This document shows positions 3,341 to 55,253 of a stretch of 64,000 nucleotides of DNA, piece by piece. Position 1 is the first letter of the stretch. Each line of letters starts with the position of its first letter. The position numbers and the translations under genes were made by a program. The DNA is taken from the NCBI RefSeq assembly GCF_001904615.1, contig NZ_MRBY01000012.1, positions 1-64,000 on the forward strand, given 5' to 3'. The notes beneath the pieces were generated by a model. That model saw only the letters and a program-made list of their open reading frames with translations. It was not told the origin of the DNA and did not search any database. Origin of the DNA: [Limnothrix rosea] IAM M-220 (GTDB lineage: Bacteria; Cyanobacteriota; Cyanobacteriia; Cyanobacteriales; MRBY01).

Positions 3341-5107
3341 TTGCTTAAGTCTGCTGCTGTTGGTCTGTTTACTAGCCTTTCTCTCGCTACGCCTGTTCTT
3401 GCCCAAAATATCCGTACCAGCGATCGCCTCCACCTGAGCTATCCCCCGACTAACCACCAAACCACCGCAGAACAAATCTTTTTCATTGGCTCCGCCCCAA
3501 ATAACGGCACAGTCACAGTGAACGGACAAAACATTAACCGCAGCCCCCTCGGACATTTTGCCCCTAGTGTGCCCCTCCAAGTCGGCAGCAACGAGTTTAC
3601 CCTAGAGTTTCGCAACGCCAATGGTCAAACCTCTCAGATCCGCCGTACCATCACCCGCTTAGCGAATACCCCAACCGTTTCCAATAGCCTCGAAAACCTC
3701 TATCCTGCCGTCGATATTGCCCGCCAACCGGGAGAATTAATTTGCTTCCAAGCCCAAGCCCCTGAAGCCGCCCAAGTGTCAGTGCGCCTTGCCAACCAAA
3801 GCATTCCCCTACAGCCCCAAGCCTCCATTAGTCTCCCGCCCAATTCTGCGGTGCTGACCCTAACGAATGATGCCTTGGTAACGGGCTTTTCTGGTCAACA
3901 TCAAGGGTGTCATTCCTTTGGGCAAATCGGCAATCTAGGCAAACCGACTTACACCATGACCCTCAATGGCGCAACCAGTACCACCACCAGTGTCGGAACC
4001 CTCGAAATACTTGATGCCCAAAATCCTGAGGCGATCGCCGTCACCTCCTTCGCTGGCGTTGCCCGTACCGGCGCGAGCACCAACTTTTCGCGTCTAACGC
4101 CCTTGCCCCAAGGAACCCAAGCTAGCGTCACCGGCAAAGAAGGGGAATGGTTGCGTTTAGACTACGGTGCATGGCTTAAAGCCGCCGAAACAACGACTCT
4201 CAATACCACTGTGCCGCCTCGCTCAATCATTAGAAGTGTGCGCTCCCAAACCTTTGTCGATAGAACAGACGTGATTTTTCCGCTACAAACCCCTGTTCCC
4301 GTCACCGTCCAACAAAGCGACGACACCTTTACCCTCATTTTGCATAACACCACCGCCCAAACGGATACCATTTATCTGTCCCAAAGTCCCGTCATTCGTC
4401 GCCTCGACTGGTATCAACCGGAGCCTGATCTGATTCGTTATGATTTTCGTCTCAAGCAAGGGCAGCAATGGGGCTACGAGCTGAATTATGCAGGCACAAA
4501 TTTAGTTTTATCTTTGCGTCACCCACCGCAACTATCGGCAAATTCTTTGGCTGGTTCCACCATTTGGCTGGATCCCGGACATGGCGGCACAGAGTTCGGC
4601 GCAGCAGGCTCTACTGGCTATCCTGAAAAAGCAATTAATCTGGTTATTTCCAACAAAATCAAACAGGCTCTCGAAGCAAAAGGGGCGATGGTTTCCATGA
4701 GCCGCACTGAGGATGTCAATGTCTCGTTAGGCGATCGCCAAAAAATGATTCGTGAACAAAAACCCACTGTCGCTCTTTCGATTCATTACAATGCCCTACC
4801 TGATGCTGGTGATGCGGAAAATACGGCTGGAATTGGCATGTTTTGGTATAACGCCCATGCCCATGATTTGGCGCAGTTTCTCCATGACGAGCTAGTGCAA
4901 AATTTAAACCGTCCATCCTATGGGGTTTTCTGGAATAATCTTGCTTTGACCCGTCCCCATGAGGCTCCCAGCGTTTTGCTCGAACTGGGTTTTATGATTA
5001 ATCCCACCGAATTTGAATGGATTACCGACCCGGCGGCACAGGATCAACTGGCCGGGGCGATCGCCGACGCTGTAGAAAATTGGCTCATGATAAAGACAAA
5101 AAGATAA
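3341..5107 (+). CDS. N-acetylmuramoyl-L-alanine amidase (Amidase_3)
   Basis: A 588-residue secreted cell-wall hydrolase that cuts the bond between muramic acid and the stem peptide. The N-terminus is a signal peptide ending ATPVLAQ. A beta-rich region of about 380 residues follows, partly AMIN-like, and the catalytic Amidase_3 domain starts near residue 405. Zinc and catalytic residues are visible in LDPGHGG, the Glu of YPEKAINL, the His of SIHYNA and LLELGFMIN. The start is TTG 3341: no ATG or GTG exists in frame between the proA stop and this codon. The last codons lie inside a 281-bp tandem duplication shared with the converging tolC-like gene. Confidence 0.9.
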   Translation: MLKSAAVGLFTSLSLATPVLAQNIRTSDRLHLSYPPTNHQTTAEQIFFIGSAPNNGTVTVNGQNINRSPLGHFAPSVPLQVGSNEFTLEFRNANGQTSQIRRTITRLANTPTVSNSLENLYPAVDIARQPGELICFQAQAPEAAQVSVRLANQSIPLQPQASISLPPNSAVLTLTNDALVTGFSGQHQGCHSFGQIGNLGKPTYTMTLNGATSTTTSVGTLEILDAQNPEAIAVTSFAGVARTGASTNFSRLTPLPQGTQASVTGKEGEWLRLDYGAWLKAAETTTLNTTVPPRSIIRSVRSQTFVDRTDVIFPLQTPVPVTVQQSDDTFTLILHNTTAQTDTIYLSQSPVIRRLDWYQPEPDLIRYDFRLKQGQQWGYELNYAGTNLVLSLRHPPQLSANSLAGSTIWLDPGHGGTEFGAAGSTGYPEKAINLVISNKIKQALEAKGAMVSMSRTEDVNVSLGDRQKMIREQKPTVALSIHYNALPDAGDAENTAGIGMFWYNAHAHDLAQFLHDELVQNLNRPSYGVFWNNLALTRPHEAPSVLLELGFMINPTEFEWITDPAAQDQLAGAIADAVENWLMIKTKR

Positions 5108-5635
5108 GAGTGAAGACACGGGGACGCTGGGACAAGGTGAGAGGAAGACGAAAAGAGCATTTGTTTATGAACAAGGCTAGAAAAATTTTCAGCACATTCA
5201 CCCTTTCTCCCAATCTGATTTCATTGCAAGTGTCCCGTGGCGTAAGCAAAACACTCACCCCTTCCCCGAGTCACCCGCTCTCCGTCTCTATCTAATTTGC
5301 GGGTATAACCTCAATTTCCTCACCGACACTGACCTCACGCTTAAGCTGAGCAGTAGAAGATTGGCTCGTGATGAAGACAAAAAGATAAGAGTGAAGACAC
5401 GGGGATGCTGGGACAAGGTGAGAGGAAGACGAAAAGAGCATTTGTTTATGAACAAGGCTAGAAAAATTTTCAGCACATTCACCCTTTCTCCCAATCTGAT
5501 TTCATTGCACGTGTCCCGTGGCGTAAGCAAAACACTCACCCCTTCCCCGAGTCACCCGCTCTCCGTCTCTATCTAATTTGCGGGTATAACCTCAATTTCT
5601 TCACCGACACTGACCTCACGCTTAAGCTGGGCATA
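5074..5635. repeat. 281-bp tandem duplication spanning two convergent gene ends
   Basis: Two near-identical copies, about 5074-5350 and 5355-5631, are offset by exactly 281 bases (TGGCTC at 5081 and 5362; TTAAGCTG at 5341 and 5622). Each unit holds the last codons of the amidase, the intergenic spacer, and the last codons of the tolC-like gene on the minus strand. Only a few base differences separate the copies, so the event looks recent. The middle now contains orphan 3' ends of both genes that are not attached to a reading frame. Short open frames across it are by-products. Confidence 0.9.
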
Positions 5636-17456: not shown

Positions 17457-18376
17457 TTGGGTAAATTTAGCACCAATAAATCCAGCATTTGGGAACCCGC
17501 AAAAAAGACAAACAAGCCAAAACTTACCAAACTAATCAACATCACCTGTAAATTAAGAACTTGAATCGCGCGACGTAGATCCCGTTGGTAGTAGTACCGA
17601 ATTTGTTCAAAACTTTTTGATAATGTCCCTGCCGCCTCGCCAGTACGAATCATCTGTACAACCATCGGTGAACAATAGGGCTGCACGGTGTCTGATAGTT
17701 CCTTACCGCGACGCACCTGTGGTTCAACGCGTCGCATCATTTGGTTGATCACTGGGTCAGGAAAATCGCGTTTCAGCCAATCTAAAGCTGAGCCGAGGGA
17801 GATGCCGCAATCTAGGGGCAGCTGCAAATAGCTGAGGTTAATCATGGTCTGGAAAGCAAATAATCTTTTAAAAGGCGGCACATAGCGGAGGCGATCGCCG
17901 AGAGGCGGCCAGTGGATTGCACCATAAATAAAGCCGACTAAAACGAGCGCCACACCAGTGGCCACTAACCAAAAACTTAAACTCGTGACCACACCACCGA
18001 GCAATAAAAAAAAGACCATTGTCCATGACCACACCATGCGAAAAAGTCGTAGCACCATGCCACGAATTAAACGACGACGGGCCACTATTTCCGTCAAGGT
18101 TTTCGCTAAATCCTCACAGGCGATCGCCAAAGCACCACTTTTTTCAGCCAGGCCAACCACAGCCATCACCCAAGGCGAAAATTCCTGACCTAAAGACTTA
18201 AACGCCGCCGCCAAACTTGCACCACGCTCCAATTGGAAGCCCACCTGTTGCCAACGGAGCTGTCCCTTCCCTTTAGTCTTCATCGATGCGAGTCCCACAG
18301 CCTGACCGATCCCCACACCAGCCTTGAGCATCGCTGCTAGCTCCTGAAAAAAAATTGCCTGTTGCTGCTCATTCAT
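17453..18376 (-). CDS. type II secretion/type IV pilus PilC-like inner-membrane protein
   Basis: A 307-residue protein with two T2SSF domains, the fold of the PilC/GspF platform that couples the assembly ATPase to pilin export. The first domain covers about residues 5-100 (LAAMLKAGVGIGQAVGLAS, AAVVGLAEKSGALA-type helix). Two or three membrane helices lie at about 108-160. The second domain follows (LSYLQLPLDCGISLGSALDWL, VQMIRTGEAAGTLSKSFEQI), and a terminal helix ends the protein. It is shorter than true PilC (about 400) and no pilB or pilT is nearby, so it is an orphan paralogue whose partner is unknown. Confidence 0.75.
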   Translation of the reverse strand: MNEQQQAIFFQELAAMLKAGVGIGQAVGLASMKTKGKGQLRWQQVGFQLERGASLAAAFKSLGQEFSPWVMAVVGLAEKSGALAIACEDLAKTLTEIVARRRLIRGMVLRLFRMVWSWTMVFFLLLGGVVTSLSFWLVATGVALVLVGFIYGAIHWPPLGDRLRYVPPFKRLFAFQTMINLSYLQLPLDCGISLGSALDWLKRDFPDPVINQMMRRVEPQVRRGKELSDTVQPYCSPMVVQMIRTGEAAGTLSKSFEQIRYYYQRDLRRAIQVLNLQVMLISLVSFGLFVFFAGSQMLDLLVLNLPN

Positions 18377-18540
18377 AACTGCCGTTAAAGCCCAAAATCG
18401 CTCGATAGTGACGGTTTCTTGCCCACCGATAAGTATTTCTTCTTAGGTTTTTTGGCGATCGCCCTACCCATGCTCCTAGGCTAATGCGATAATTGATTTT
18501 CGTGACGACCTTTAGTAAAGATTTTTGAGTCAAAAAATCC

Positions 18541-19113
18541 ATGATGTCAGCCCGGCGATCTATTTTTATGCGTCTTTTCCTTAGCTTCTGCATTGTCTTA
18601 GTCACAATGCTCTCGACCTGTATCTCCCCGGCTTGGGCTGGTCTGAACGACGATCGTTACGACGGCAATATCTTTGTGCTTTACGCCGGTAACGGTTCCC
18701 TAGTTCCTCCCCGACTGAGCCTCAAGGAAACCCGCGATCGCCAATTACCCGCCCTGATTGTGTTCTACGTTGACGACAACAGCGACAGTAAGCGTTTTGC
18801 CCCCATCGTCTCCGAAATTCAGTCTTACTACGAAAAAGTAATTAGCATTATCCCCGTGGCAGTCGATTCGATTCCCATCAAACAAAGCTACAGCAAAGAC
18901 GAAGTTGGCTATTACTACTCCGGCAAAATTCCCCAAACAGTCATCCTCGACCAGAACGGTAAAGTTTTATTTGACGAAGTCGGCCAAGCAGACTTTAACG
19001 ACATCGACAACACTTTTCGTAAGCTCTTTGATCTCCCACTACGTGAAGGCAAAAACCTCCTTAAACCGAGTCGAGCTTTCAACGAATACAACTCTGGCTA
19101 CGAACCCCAATAG
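18541..19113 (+). CDS. thylakoid membrane photosystem I accumulation factor
   Basis: A 190-residue exported thioredoxin-fold protein. The signal peptide ends at ISPAWAG. The mature start, DDRYDGNIFVLYAGNGSLVP, and the core LIVFYVDDNSDSKRFAPIVS plus GYYYSGKIPQTVILDQNGKV match the family that NCBI names PSI accumulation factor. The usual CxxC of thioredoxins is absent (DDNSDSKR), so it is not expected to act as a simple disulfide reductase. ATG 18541 is taken; ATG 18568 would give a shorter signal. A clear terminator follows at 19158. Confidence 0.8.
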   Translation: MMSARRSIFMRLFLSFCIVLVTMLSTCISPAWAGLNDDRYDGNIFVLYAGNGSLVPPRLSLKETRDRQLPALIVFYVDDNSDSKRFAPIVSEIQSYYEKVISIIPVAVDSIPIKQSYSKDEVGYYYSGKIPQTVILDQNGKVLFDEVGQADFNDIDNTFRKLFDLPLREGKNLLKPSRAFNEYNSGYEPQ

Positions 19114-41116: not shown

Positions 41117-43343
41117 ATGATTTGGCGTTTTCTTGTCCGTCGCTCCCAAACCTGTTCGCTGGCTTTAAAGCGTTTATTGATCGGTGTCGTCGTCTTGACT
41201 GCTGCTGGTATCGCCAGTGAGCAAACGGCTCAGGCTGTTGCTTCTGAAATGTTGCGCTTGGAGCAAGGGACACATGGGCCTTTAGAGGATGAGCTTGCGG
41301 CTCTTCACATTCAAGCCAAGCTGGGTCAATTAACGCAACCACAAGTGGTTCAACTGGCACAAAGGGAAATAATATCTGCGGATATGTTGCCGCAACCTGT
41401 GGCGATCGCCCCAGAGGTGGTCTCCCCGGTGCAACCAGAATTTTCTGAAATTACTCTACCGACACATTTGTCTGATGAACTTAGTGTTGCCATTGAAGCC
41501 ATCGAAATGCCGGTGGAGCAAGAAAATAATTTAGCGCCTGTCGCAGTTGAGCTATCGGACGAATTGACGCTCTTTGCTGATGCTGCTGCTGTCGAGGAGC
41601 AAGTTAAAACGCAAATTATGGCGATCGCCGCCCCACAAATAACCACACTCCTCGCACAAAATCCCAACTCGAATACCGAGCCCTTACCGGAAGTTGAACC
41701 TTTACCGGCGGCACCCAGCCCGACCCAAACCATTGAGGAGCCTACGCCCACTCCTGCTGTCACCCCAACCAACGGCGATCGCGTCATTACCGTTAACCAA
41801 ATTCAAGTGACGGGCAGTACTGTTTTTGGAGAGGAAGATTTTGAGCCAATCTTAGGCGAGATTACCAGCGCTAATGTCAGTTTGGATGAGCTTAACCAAG
41901 CAGCTGATCGTATTACACAGCTTTATCTTGAGCAAGGTTATATTACTTCCCGGGCAATTGTGGTGGAAGATTCCCTAGCCACTGACATAATTGAGCTGCG
42001 GGTGATCGAAGGTAACGTTGACGCGATTAATCTCCGTGGTAATGAGCATATTAACGATAGCTATCTCCTCAGTCGTTTACGTTTAGGCACAAAGCAGCCC
42101 CTCAATACGAGTAATCTTGAAGACCAACTGCGACTGCTAAAACTGAACCCGATTATTGACAATATTGAAGCCACCCTCAAGGCTGGAGCAGGGATTGGAG
42201 AAAGTGATCTAGATATTATGATCACCGAGGCGAATACGGTTTCTTTGAATCTCGGCGTTGATAATTTTTCTCCTGCTAGCGTCGGTTCAGAGCGCATTAC
42301 GGCCAATTATGCTCAACAGAATCTCACTGGGGGCGGCGATCGCCTCGGCGTTGGCTATATTCGTACCACCCGCGGTGGCGCAGAAAGCCTAGACGTAAAC
42401 TACACCCGACCAATCAACGCCAAAGACGGGACAATTACTTTGCGGGGTGTGTGGAGTAGTAACCAAGTTATTCAAGAACCCTTTGACATTATGTTCCTCT
42501 ATGGGCTAATCAATAAAAGCTCAGTGGAGTAGTAACCAAGTTATTCAAGAACCCTTTGACATTCTAAATATTCGCGGCGAATCAGAACGGTACGAATTGT
42601 CCTACCGTCAGCCCATTATCCGCAATCCCCGTGAAGAATTTGCTTTAGGGCTAGGCTTCACCTACCAAGACGGTTTAACTTTCCTAGGCGACGAGCTATT
42701 CGGCTTCAATATCGGTACGGAAGATGGCAAAAGTACAACCAGCGTCCTTAAATTTTCCCAAGAATACATTAAACGCCAACCAGCGGGGGCTTGGTCCCTG
42801 CGCTCCCAATTCAGTATTGGTACAGGTTTGTTTGACGCGACAACTAATGATGCCCCCATTCCCGACGGTCATTTTTGGAGCTGGCTCGGACAAATTCAGC
42901 GGGTCAAGCTCTTGAATCCCAATAATCTATTAGTTATCCAAGCAGATCTACAACTGACACCCGACACATTACTGCCTTCCCAACAATTTGTGATCGGTGG
43001 TGGTCAATCGTTACGGGGCTTCCGGCAAAATGCCCGTTCGGCTGATAATGGTTTCCGTTTTTCTGTAGAAGATCGCATTACCCTTGCTCGTGACGAATCT
43101 GGGGATGCGGTTTTTCAGCTCGCACCTTTTTTTGATATGGGGACTGTTTGGAATAGTGATAATAATCCCAATGTACTGGCAGACCAAAAATTTTTGGCGG
43201 GTATTGGTTTAGGGGCTTGGTGGCAAATTGAAAAGGGTTTCACGGTGCGTTTTGACTATGCTCTGCCGCTAGTTAATCTCGATGATCGCGGTGATAACTG
43301 GCAGGATGATGGCTTGTATTTCAACGTGAATTATCTTTTCTAA
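41117..43343 (+). pseudogene. ShlB/FhaC/HecB-family two-partner secretion transporter (TpsB), frameshifted by a 73-bp insertion
   Basis: The product would be an outer-membrane two-partner-secretion or Omp85-type transporter. A signal peptide and an Ala/Pro-rich region come first. POTRA domains follow from about residue 225 (VNQIQVTGSTVFGEEDF, LYLEQGYITSRAIVVE, NAINLRGNEH-like), then a 16-strand barrel ending FNVNYLF. The frame breaks at a stop at 42530-42532. The barrel resumes in another frame from the second copy of a 40-bp direct repeat (42451-42490 and 42524-42563). Removing 73 bp rejoins the two halves exactly (WSSNQVIQEPFDI then LNIRGESERYEL). ATG 41117 is preferred over TTG 41096. No TpsA substrate gene is nearby. 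Confidence 0.88.
42451..42563 (+). repeat. 40-bp perfect direct repeat inside tpsB
   Basis: GTGGAGTAGTAACCAAG... (40 bp) occurs at 42451-42490 and again at 42524-42563, separated by 33 bases of unrelated sequence. Both copies encode the same peptide, but the 73-base offset shifts the frame by one. Deletion between the copies would restore the gene. Confidence 0.95.
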
Positions 43344-43396
43344 AAACTATCTTTTCTAAAAACTATCTTTTCTAAAAACTATCTTTTCTAAAAACT
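43333..43396 (+). repeat. four 16-bp tandem repeats across the tpsB stop codon
   Basis: ATCTTTTCTAAAAACT is repeated four times without change. The first copy contains the last codons and the TAA of tpsB; the other three trail behind. A slippage product. The 3' end of the protein is not changed by it. Confidence 0.95.
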
Positions 43397-43482
43397 AAAA
43401 TTGGTGGGTTCTGTTTGATGAAAATTTTTTAGTGTCGTGACATGGTCAATAGCTTACTTCACCCACCCTATAGTTTGAGTGA

Positions 43483-55013: not shown

Positions 55014-55253
55014 TTAGAATAACGTCAGTTATGGATAAGAATGTAGTCAAAATTCTTTAGAGAAAAGGAGACACGGAGAAGGAGAGACACGGAGAAGGAG
55101 AGACACGGGGAAGGAGAGACACGGGGAAGCAAGGACAATTTGCATTTTTTGAAAGCTAGAATTGTTTGCATAGAAACATCTCCCGATCTCTCGCTCTCTC
55201 ATTCACCGCATCGTACTTCCGAGCATTCTTAAACAAAACTCACATTAGAATAA
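55014..55253 (-). repeat. MITE-like interspersed repeat, copy B (inverted)
   Basis: This is the reverse complement of the 8.8-kb element, longer because it holds about four 16-base minisatellite units (GAGAGACACGGAGAAG) where copy A has about two. It is flanked by a 9-base direct repeat, TTAGAATAA at 55014-55022 and 55245-55253, which looks like a target-site duplication around the ends CGTCAG...CTCACA. It carries no gene, so it would be a non-autonomous element. Confidence 0.8.

Follow-up and report, generated by a model that had tools for sequence, protein, structure and literature searches.

An insertion the size of a CRISPR repeat–spacer unit splits a cyanobacterial TpsB gene and may derive from off-target integration by Cas1-Cas2

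The DNA analysed here (the window), a stretch of 64,000 nucleotides from Limnothrix rosea IAM M-220, contains a gene for an outer-membrane TpsB (ShlB/FhaC-type) transporter that is split by 73 bp associated with a perfect direct repeat. This raises the question of whether the gene carries a device that turns it off and on, or the scar of some other event. The whole gene occupies positions 41117–43343 of the forward strand, with its start set by conservation with the congener G005, and looks intact apart from the split. It encodes the two domains expected of a TpsB protein, POTRA_2 (PF08479) and the ShlB barrel (PF03865), but divided between two reading frames. The upstream ORF (41117–42532) specifies an N-terminal extension, the POTRA domain (PF08479, E=1.2e-18) and the start of the PF03865 barrel, and terminates at a TAG (42530–42532) that lies within the second repeat copy. 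The downstream part (42525–43343, same strand) supplies the remaining barrel (PF03865, E=1.4e-21; PF01103, E=1.8e-12) one base out of frame; it is open up to 43343 and has no good start codon, the earliest usable one being a TTG at 42597. The 3′ end of the gene coincides with four exact tandem copies of a 16-bp unit (TATCTTTTCTAAAAAC, 43332–43397) that holds the gene's final codons together with its stop. A single further TpsB is encoded in the genome, at C10:31815–32630, where it adjoins a TPS-domain protein; there are five TPS-domain proteins genome-wide, all on contigs other than that of the window.

The interruption is built from two 40-bp copies (42451–42490 and 42524–42563, forward strand) that are identical at 40 of 40 positions and enclose a 33-bp filler (42491–42523). 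The chance expectation for a repeat pair of this length is zero matches, even when three mismatches are allowed, and across the 4.07-Mb genome neither the 40-bp repeat nor the 33-bp filler is found anywhere but at the TpsB locus. An insertion of 73 bp does not divide evenly into codons and so shifts the reading frame of the gene. Both copies translate to WSSNQVIQEPFDI; copy 1 belongs to the upstream frame, and copy 2 to that of the 3′ part, which is offset by one. The structural claims of the original prediction are therefore borne out: two identical 40-bp copies around a 33-base spacer do offset the TpsB frame by one and are not a product of chance, and a 73-bp deletion between them would restore the frame, as each copy encodes the same residues in its own frame.

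A TpsB match was found in 55 of the 60 genomes searched, and the close orthologues listed have long open frames, with the exception of a shorter fragment match in the draft assembly G007. Two congener orthologues, from G005 and G004, were aligned as DNA; in both, the sequence is present as a single copy without the 73 bp. The 3′ part of the split gene is 93% (G005) and 84% (G004) identical in protein sequence to these open orthologues. Since both orthologues are open and single-copy, the 73 bp represent a derived insertion. In both halves of the gene, most differences from G005 are third-position changes, and no further stop was seen, which marks the break as recent. The perfect identity of the two copies had been attributed either to a recent origin or to repeated switching; the codon-position pattern and the lack of further stops favour the former, and the absence of the repeat from the congeners, together with the foreign filler, speaks against the latter.

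We surveyed spaced repeats over 2.73 Mb, two thirds of the genome, setting apart CRISPR arrays, coding-periodic repeats and simple sequence. Seven isolated, non-coding-periodic pairs remain after filtering at spacings of 30–600 bp (42, 45, 72, 73, 85, 475 and 530 bp), and the three spaced at 72, 73 and 85 bp have copies of 36–40 bp and share one anatomy. Besides the site in the window (40+33=73 bp), these are C8:112071 (L159:12071–12191), a perfect 36-bp repeat with a unique 49-bp filler (36+49=85 bp) that starts at the stop codon of metG and is missing from five congeners, and C33:32579 (L249:12579–12688), a 38-bp repeat with one mismatch and a unique 34-bp filler (38+34=72 bp) in an intergenic region that is not conserved. 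Taking the first site as given and assuming an even spread, the chance that at least two of the other six pairs fall within 68–85 bp is about 0.014, a modest test whose interval was taken from the native CRISPR arrays, including a single 85-bp unit, and whose hypothesis was formed after the data had been seen. A small control of 0.57 Mb from other cyanobacterial loci contains nine spaced repeats. Most of these are hairpin-like, simple or coding, and in no case is a copy length of 35–41 bp combined with a unique filler of 30–50 bp. Candidates at L225, L246, L250, L255, L236, L192 and other loci of the genome were dismissed as coding or periodic repeats or simple sequence.

The unit size of 73 bp points to a CRISPR repeat-plus-spacer unit, and the genome encodes the machinery that makes such units. 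Three cas1 loci are present. Contig C17 carries a type I-D module with Cas1 (above the cut-off of that model), Cas2, Cas4 and Cas6, whose array comprises about 205 copies of a 37-bp repeat. C12 encodes an RT-Cas1 fusion together with Cas2 and has three arrays of 35-bp repeats, and C34 has a Cas1-Cas2 pair near type III-B Cmr2, Cmr3, Cmr4 and Cmr6, with an array of 36-bp repeats. Glu, His and Asp at the expected active-site positions (E153, H218 and D230 in the alignment) are invariant in all three Cas1 proteins, and the I-D Cas1 closely resembles a solved Cas1 chain along its entire length (7cr6, E=3.5e-190). Native repeat-plus-spacer units, counted over 279 spacers, measure 68–85 bp; the sizes of 72 bp (87 units) and 73 bp (58 units) rank among the commonest, and 85 bp is represented once; the units at the three isolated sites, of 73, 72 and 85 bp, lie within this range. 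An A directly before the I-D repeat shows no near-constant preference once all repeats are counted. Within the I-D array (L184:262–15530) a run of spacers recurs about 1,087 bp further on, marking a segmental duplication, and two proteins of the 23S-rRNA-intervening-sequence (four-helix) family are encoded between the I-D cas1, cas4 and cas6 genes (L184:17193–17567 and 18288–18659).

We propose, at a probability of roughly 0.6, that the 73-bp insertion in the TpsB gene arose by non-array (off-target) spacer integration by Cas1-Cas2. In such an event the cell's own adaptation complex would integrate spacer-sized DNA not at a CRISPR array but in the chromosomal TpsB gene, joining the two prespacer ends to opposite strands about 37 bp apart. 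Gap filling would then duplicate the stretch between the joins, yielding a repeat–spacer–repeat structure in which a duplication of about 37 bp could appear as 40 bp through three bases that match by chance; slippage or recombination could later delete the repeat pair. If the duplication is read as the 37-bp register within copy 1 (42451–42487), the filler, our proposed spacer, becomes 36 bp long, and the resulting 37+36 bp is a common I-D unit size. This register has G...C borders, as does the 36-bp repeat at C8 exactly. Off-target attack by Cas1-Cas2 in vitro favours G (PMC6895254), and non-array integration in vivo under Cas1-Cas2 overexpression is attributed to Nivala et al. 2018 in passages of PMC11788318 and PMC9456107. 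The duplications at the three sites (40, 36 and 38 bp) compare with native repeats of 35, 36 and 37 bp, their exact borders being blurred by chance matches. Several observations count against off-target integration. The 40-bp duplication is longer than any native repeat and requires the 3-bp chance match, the 85-bp unit at C8 is equalled by only 1 of the 279 native units, and random genomic 38-mers resemble the native repeats as well as the targets do.

The same structure might instead have been produced by an accident of replication or repair, in which template switching or end joining generated a short duplication and captured or copied a filler with no CRISPR enzyme involved. Duplication with filler is a general class of mutation, spaced direct repeats are present in other cyanobacterial loci too, and the dissimilarity of the targets to CRISPR repeats fits such an origin as well. 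The filler of a templated accident, however, usually originates nearby or in the same genome, whereas the three spacer-sized fillers here have no second occurrence in the genome at up to three mismatches; copy length and unit size also cluster at CRISPR values. We therefore regard an ordinary duplication as an unlikely origin, and rate as less probable again an assembly or sequencing artefact, in which an unmerged overlap of contig ends or a chimeric read tail would create a false repeat–filler–repeat. The draft consists of 92 contigs and holds structures that invite this suspicion, namely a 10-N scaffold gap between 62-bp near-identical direct repeats spaced at 136 bp (L238:14496–14693), which is probably an unmerged contig overlap, and a 70-bp perfect direct repeat spaced at 77 bp at the start of contig C1 (L115:1–147). 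The third-position bias, which indicates that the broken gene is otherwise constrained, could be read in the same way. Yet the structure at 42451–42563 contains no N and is well away from either end of its contig, at 42 kb of 91 kb, the fillers have no other match in the genome, and similar sizes are common to three sites, of which C33 has copies that differ by one mismatch, as expected of an old event.

The original prediction, in which the 73-bp segment would be gained and lost repeatedly as a phase-variation device switching TpsB off and on, finds no support, and we consider it very improbable. Its appeal lies in the frame being regained by loss between perfect repeats, with the same residues encoded by both copies, but any perfect duplication can be reversed in this way. 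The repeat is missing from both congener orthologues aligned as DNA, and we know of no mechanism by which the identical 73 bp, foreign filler included, would be regained. Moreover, the look-alikes at C8 and C33 lie outside coding sequence, which indicates that the structure is not built into the TpsB gene. Off-target integration is accordingly the best supported explanation, followed by ordinary duplication with filler and then by an assembly artefact.

No convincing protospacer was found for the fillers in the genome itself, viral contigs, phages or plasmids. The best match, to a Staphylococcus phage (24 bp, 92%), was discounted as being at chance level, and comparison of the fillers with the native spacers gave matches of chance length only. 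These missing protospacers say little, because about 160 native spacers searched against the phage collection gave no match either, and because the spacers of Arthrospira, another cyanobacterium with RT-Cas1, very rarely have matches in public and virome data (PMC5513706).

Several known systems resemble the split TpsB gene to different degrees. With off-target Cas1-Cas2 integration it shares a spacer-sized insert, a chromosomal non-array site, the presence of Cas1-Cas2 in the cell and a border starting with G; its duplication, with borders blurred by chance matches, may likewise correspond to roughly one CRISPR repeat. To our knowledge, most evidence for off-target spacer integration comes from E. 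coli overexpressing Cas1-Cas2 and from work in vitro, whereas the present host is a cyanobacterium with I-D, III-B and RT-Cas1 modules, the insertion breaks a gene, the target is unlike the native repeat and the duplications measure 36–40 bp. Repeat-mediated phase variation of surface proteins likewise involves a frame-shifting direct repeat in a surface-protein gene whose deletion restores the frame, but the TpsB insertion differs in its foreign filler, in the lack of recurrence in the relatives examined and in the similar scars outside genes. Scars of transposons or insertion sequences with target-site duplication also consist of direct repeats around an insert that is missing from relatives. 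The known target duplications of insertion sequences are about 2–15 bp, however, far shorter than those described here, and a 33-bp filler that occurs once in the genome is too short for an element.

If off-target integration is the correct explanation, the TpsB gene and the two sister scars would provide a natural case of gene breakage that exposes a mutational cost of adaptive immunity in nature. It would also define a countable signature, an isolated duplication of repeat length with a foreign spacer-sized filler, that could be compared between genomes with and without cas1, and it cautions against taking such repeats for phase switches. A broader and more tentative reading, which we think doubtful as it stands, is that the CRISPR adaptation machinery of this cyanobacterium, perhaps RT-Cas1, acts as a recurrent natural insertional mutagen. 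Three or more single-spacer scars outside arrays would then be its work, including the one that inactivated a surface-transport gene, and such scars could possibly seed new arrays. RT-Cas1 is able to use RNA too.

Tandem repeats of other kinds are also present in the window. Positions 5072–5633 hold a 281-bp tandem duplication whose two copies are 97% alike, and a 16-bp tandem repeat (GAGACACGGAGAAGGA) is present in 3.9 copies at 55068–55129.
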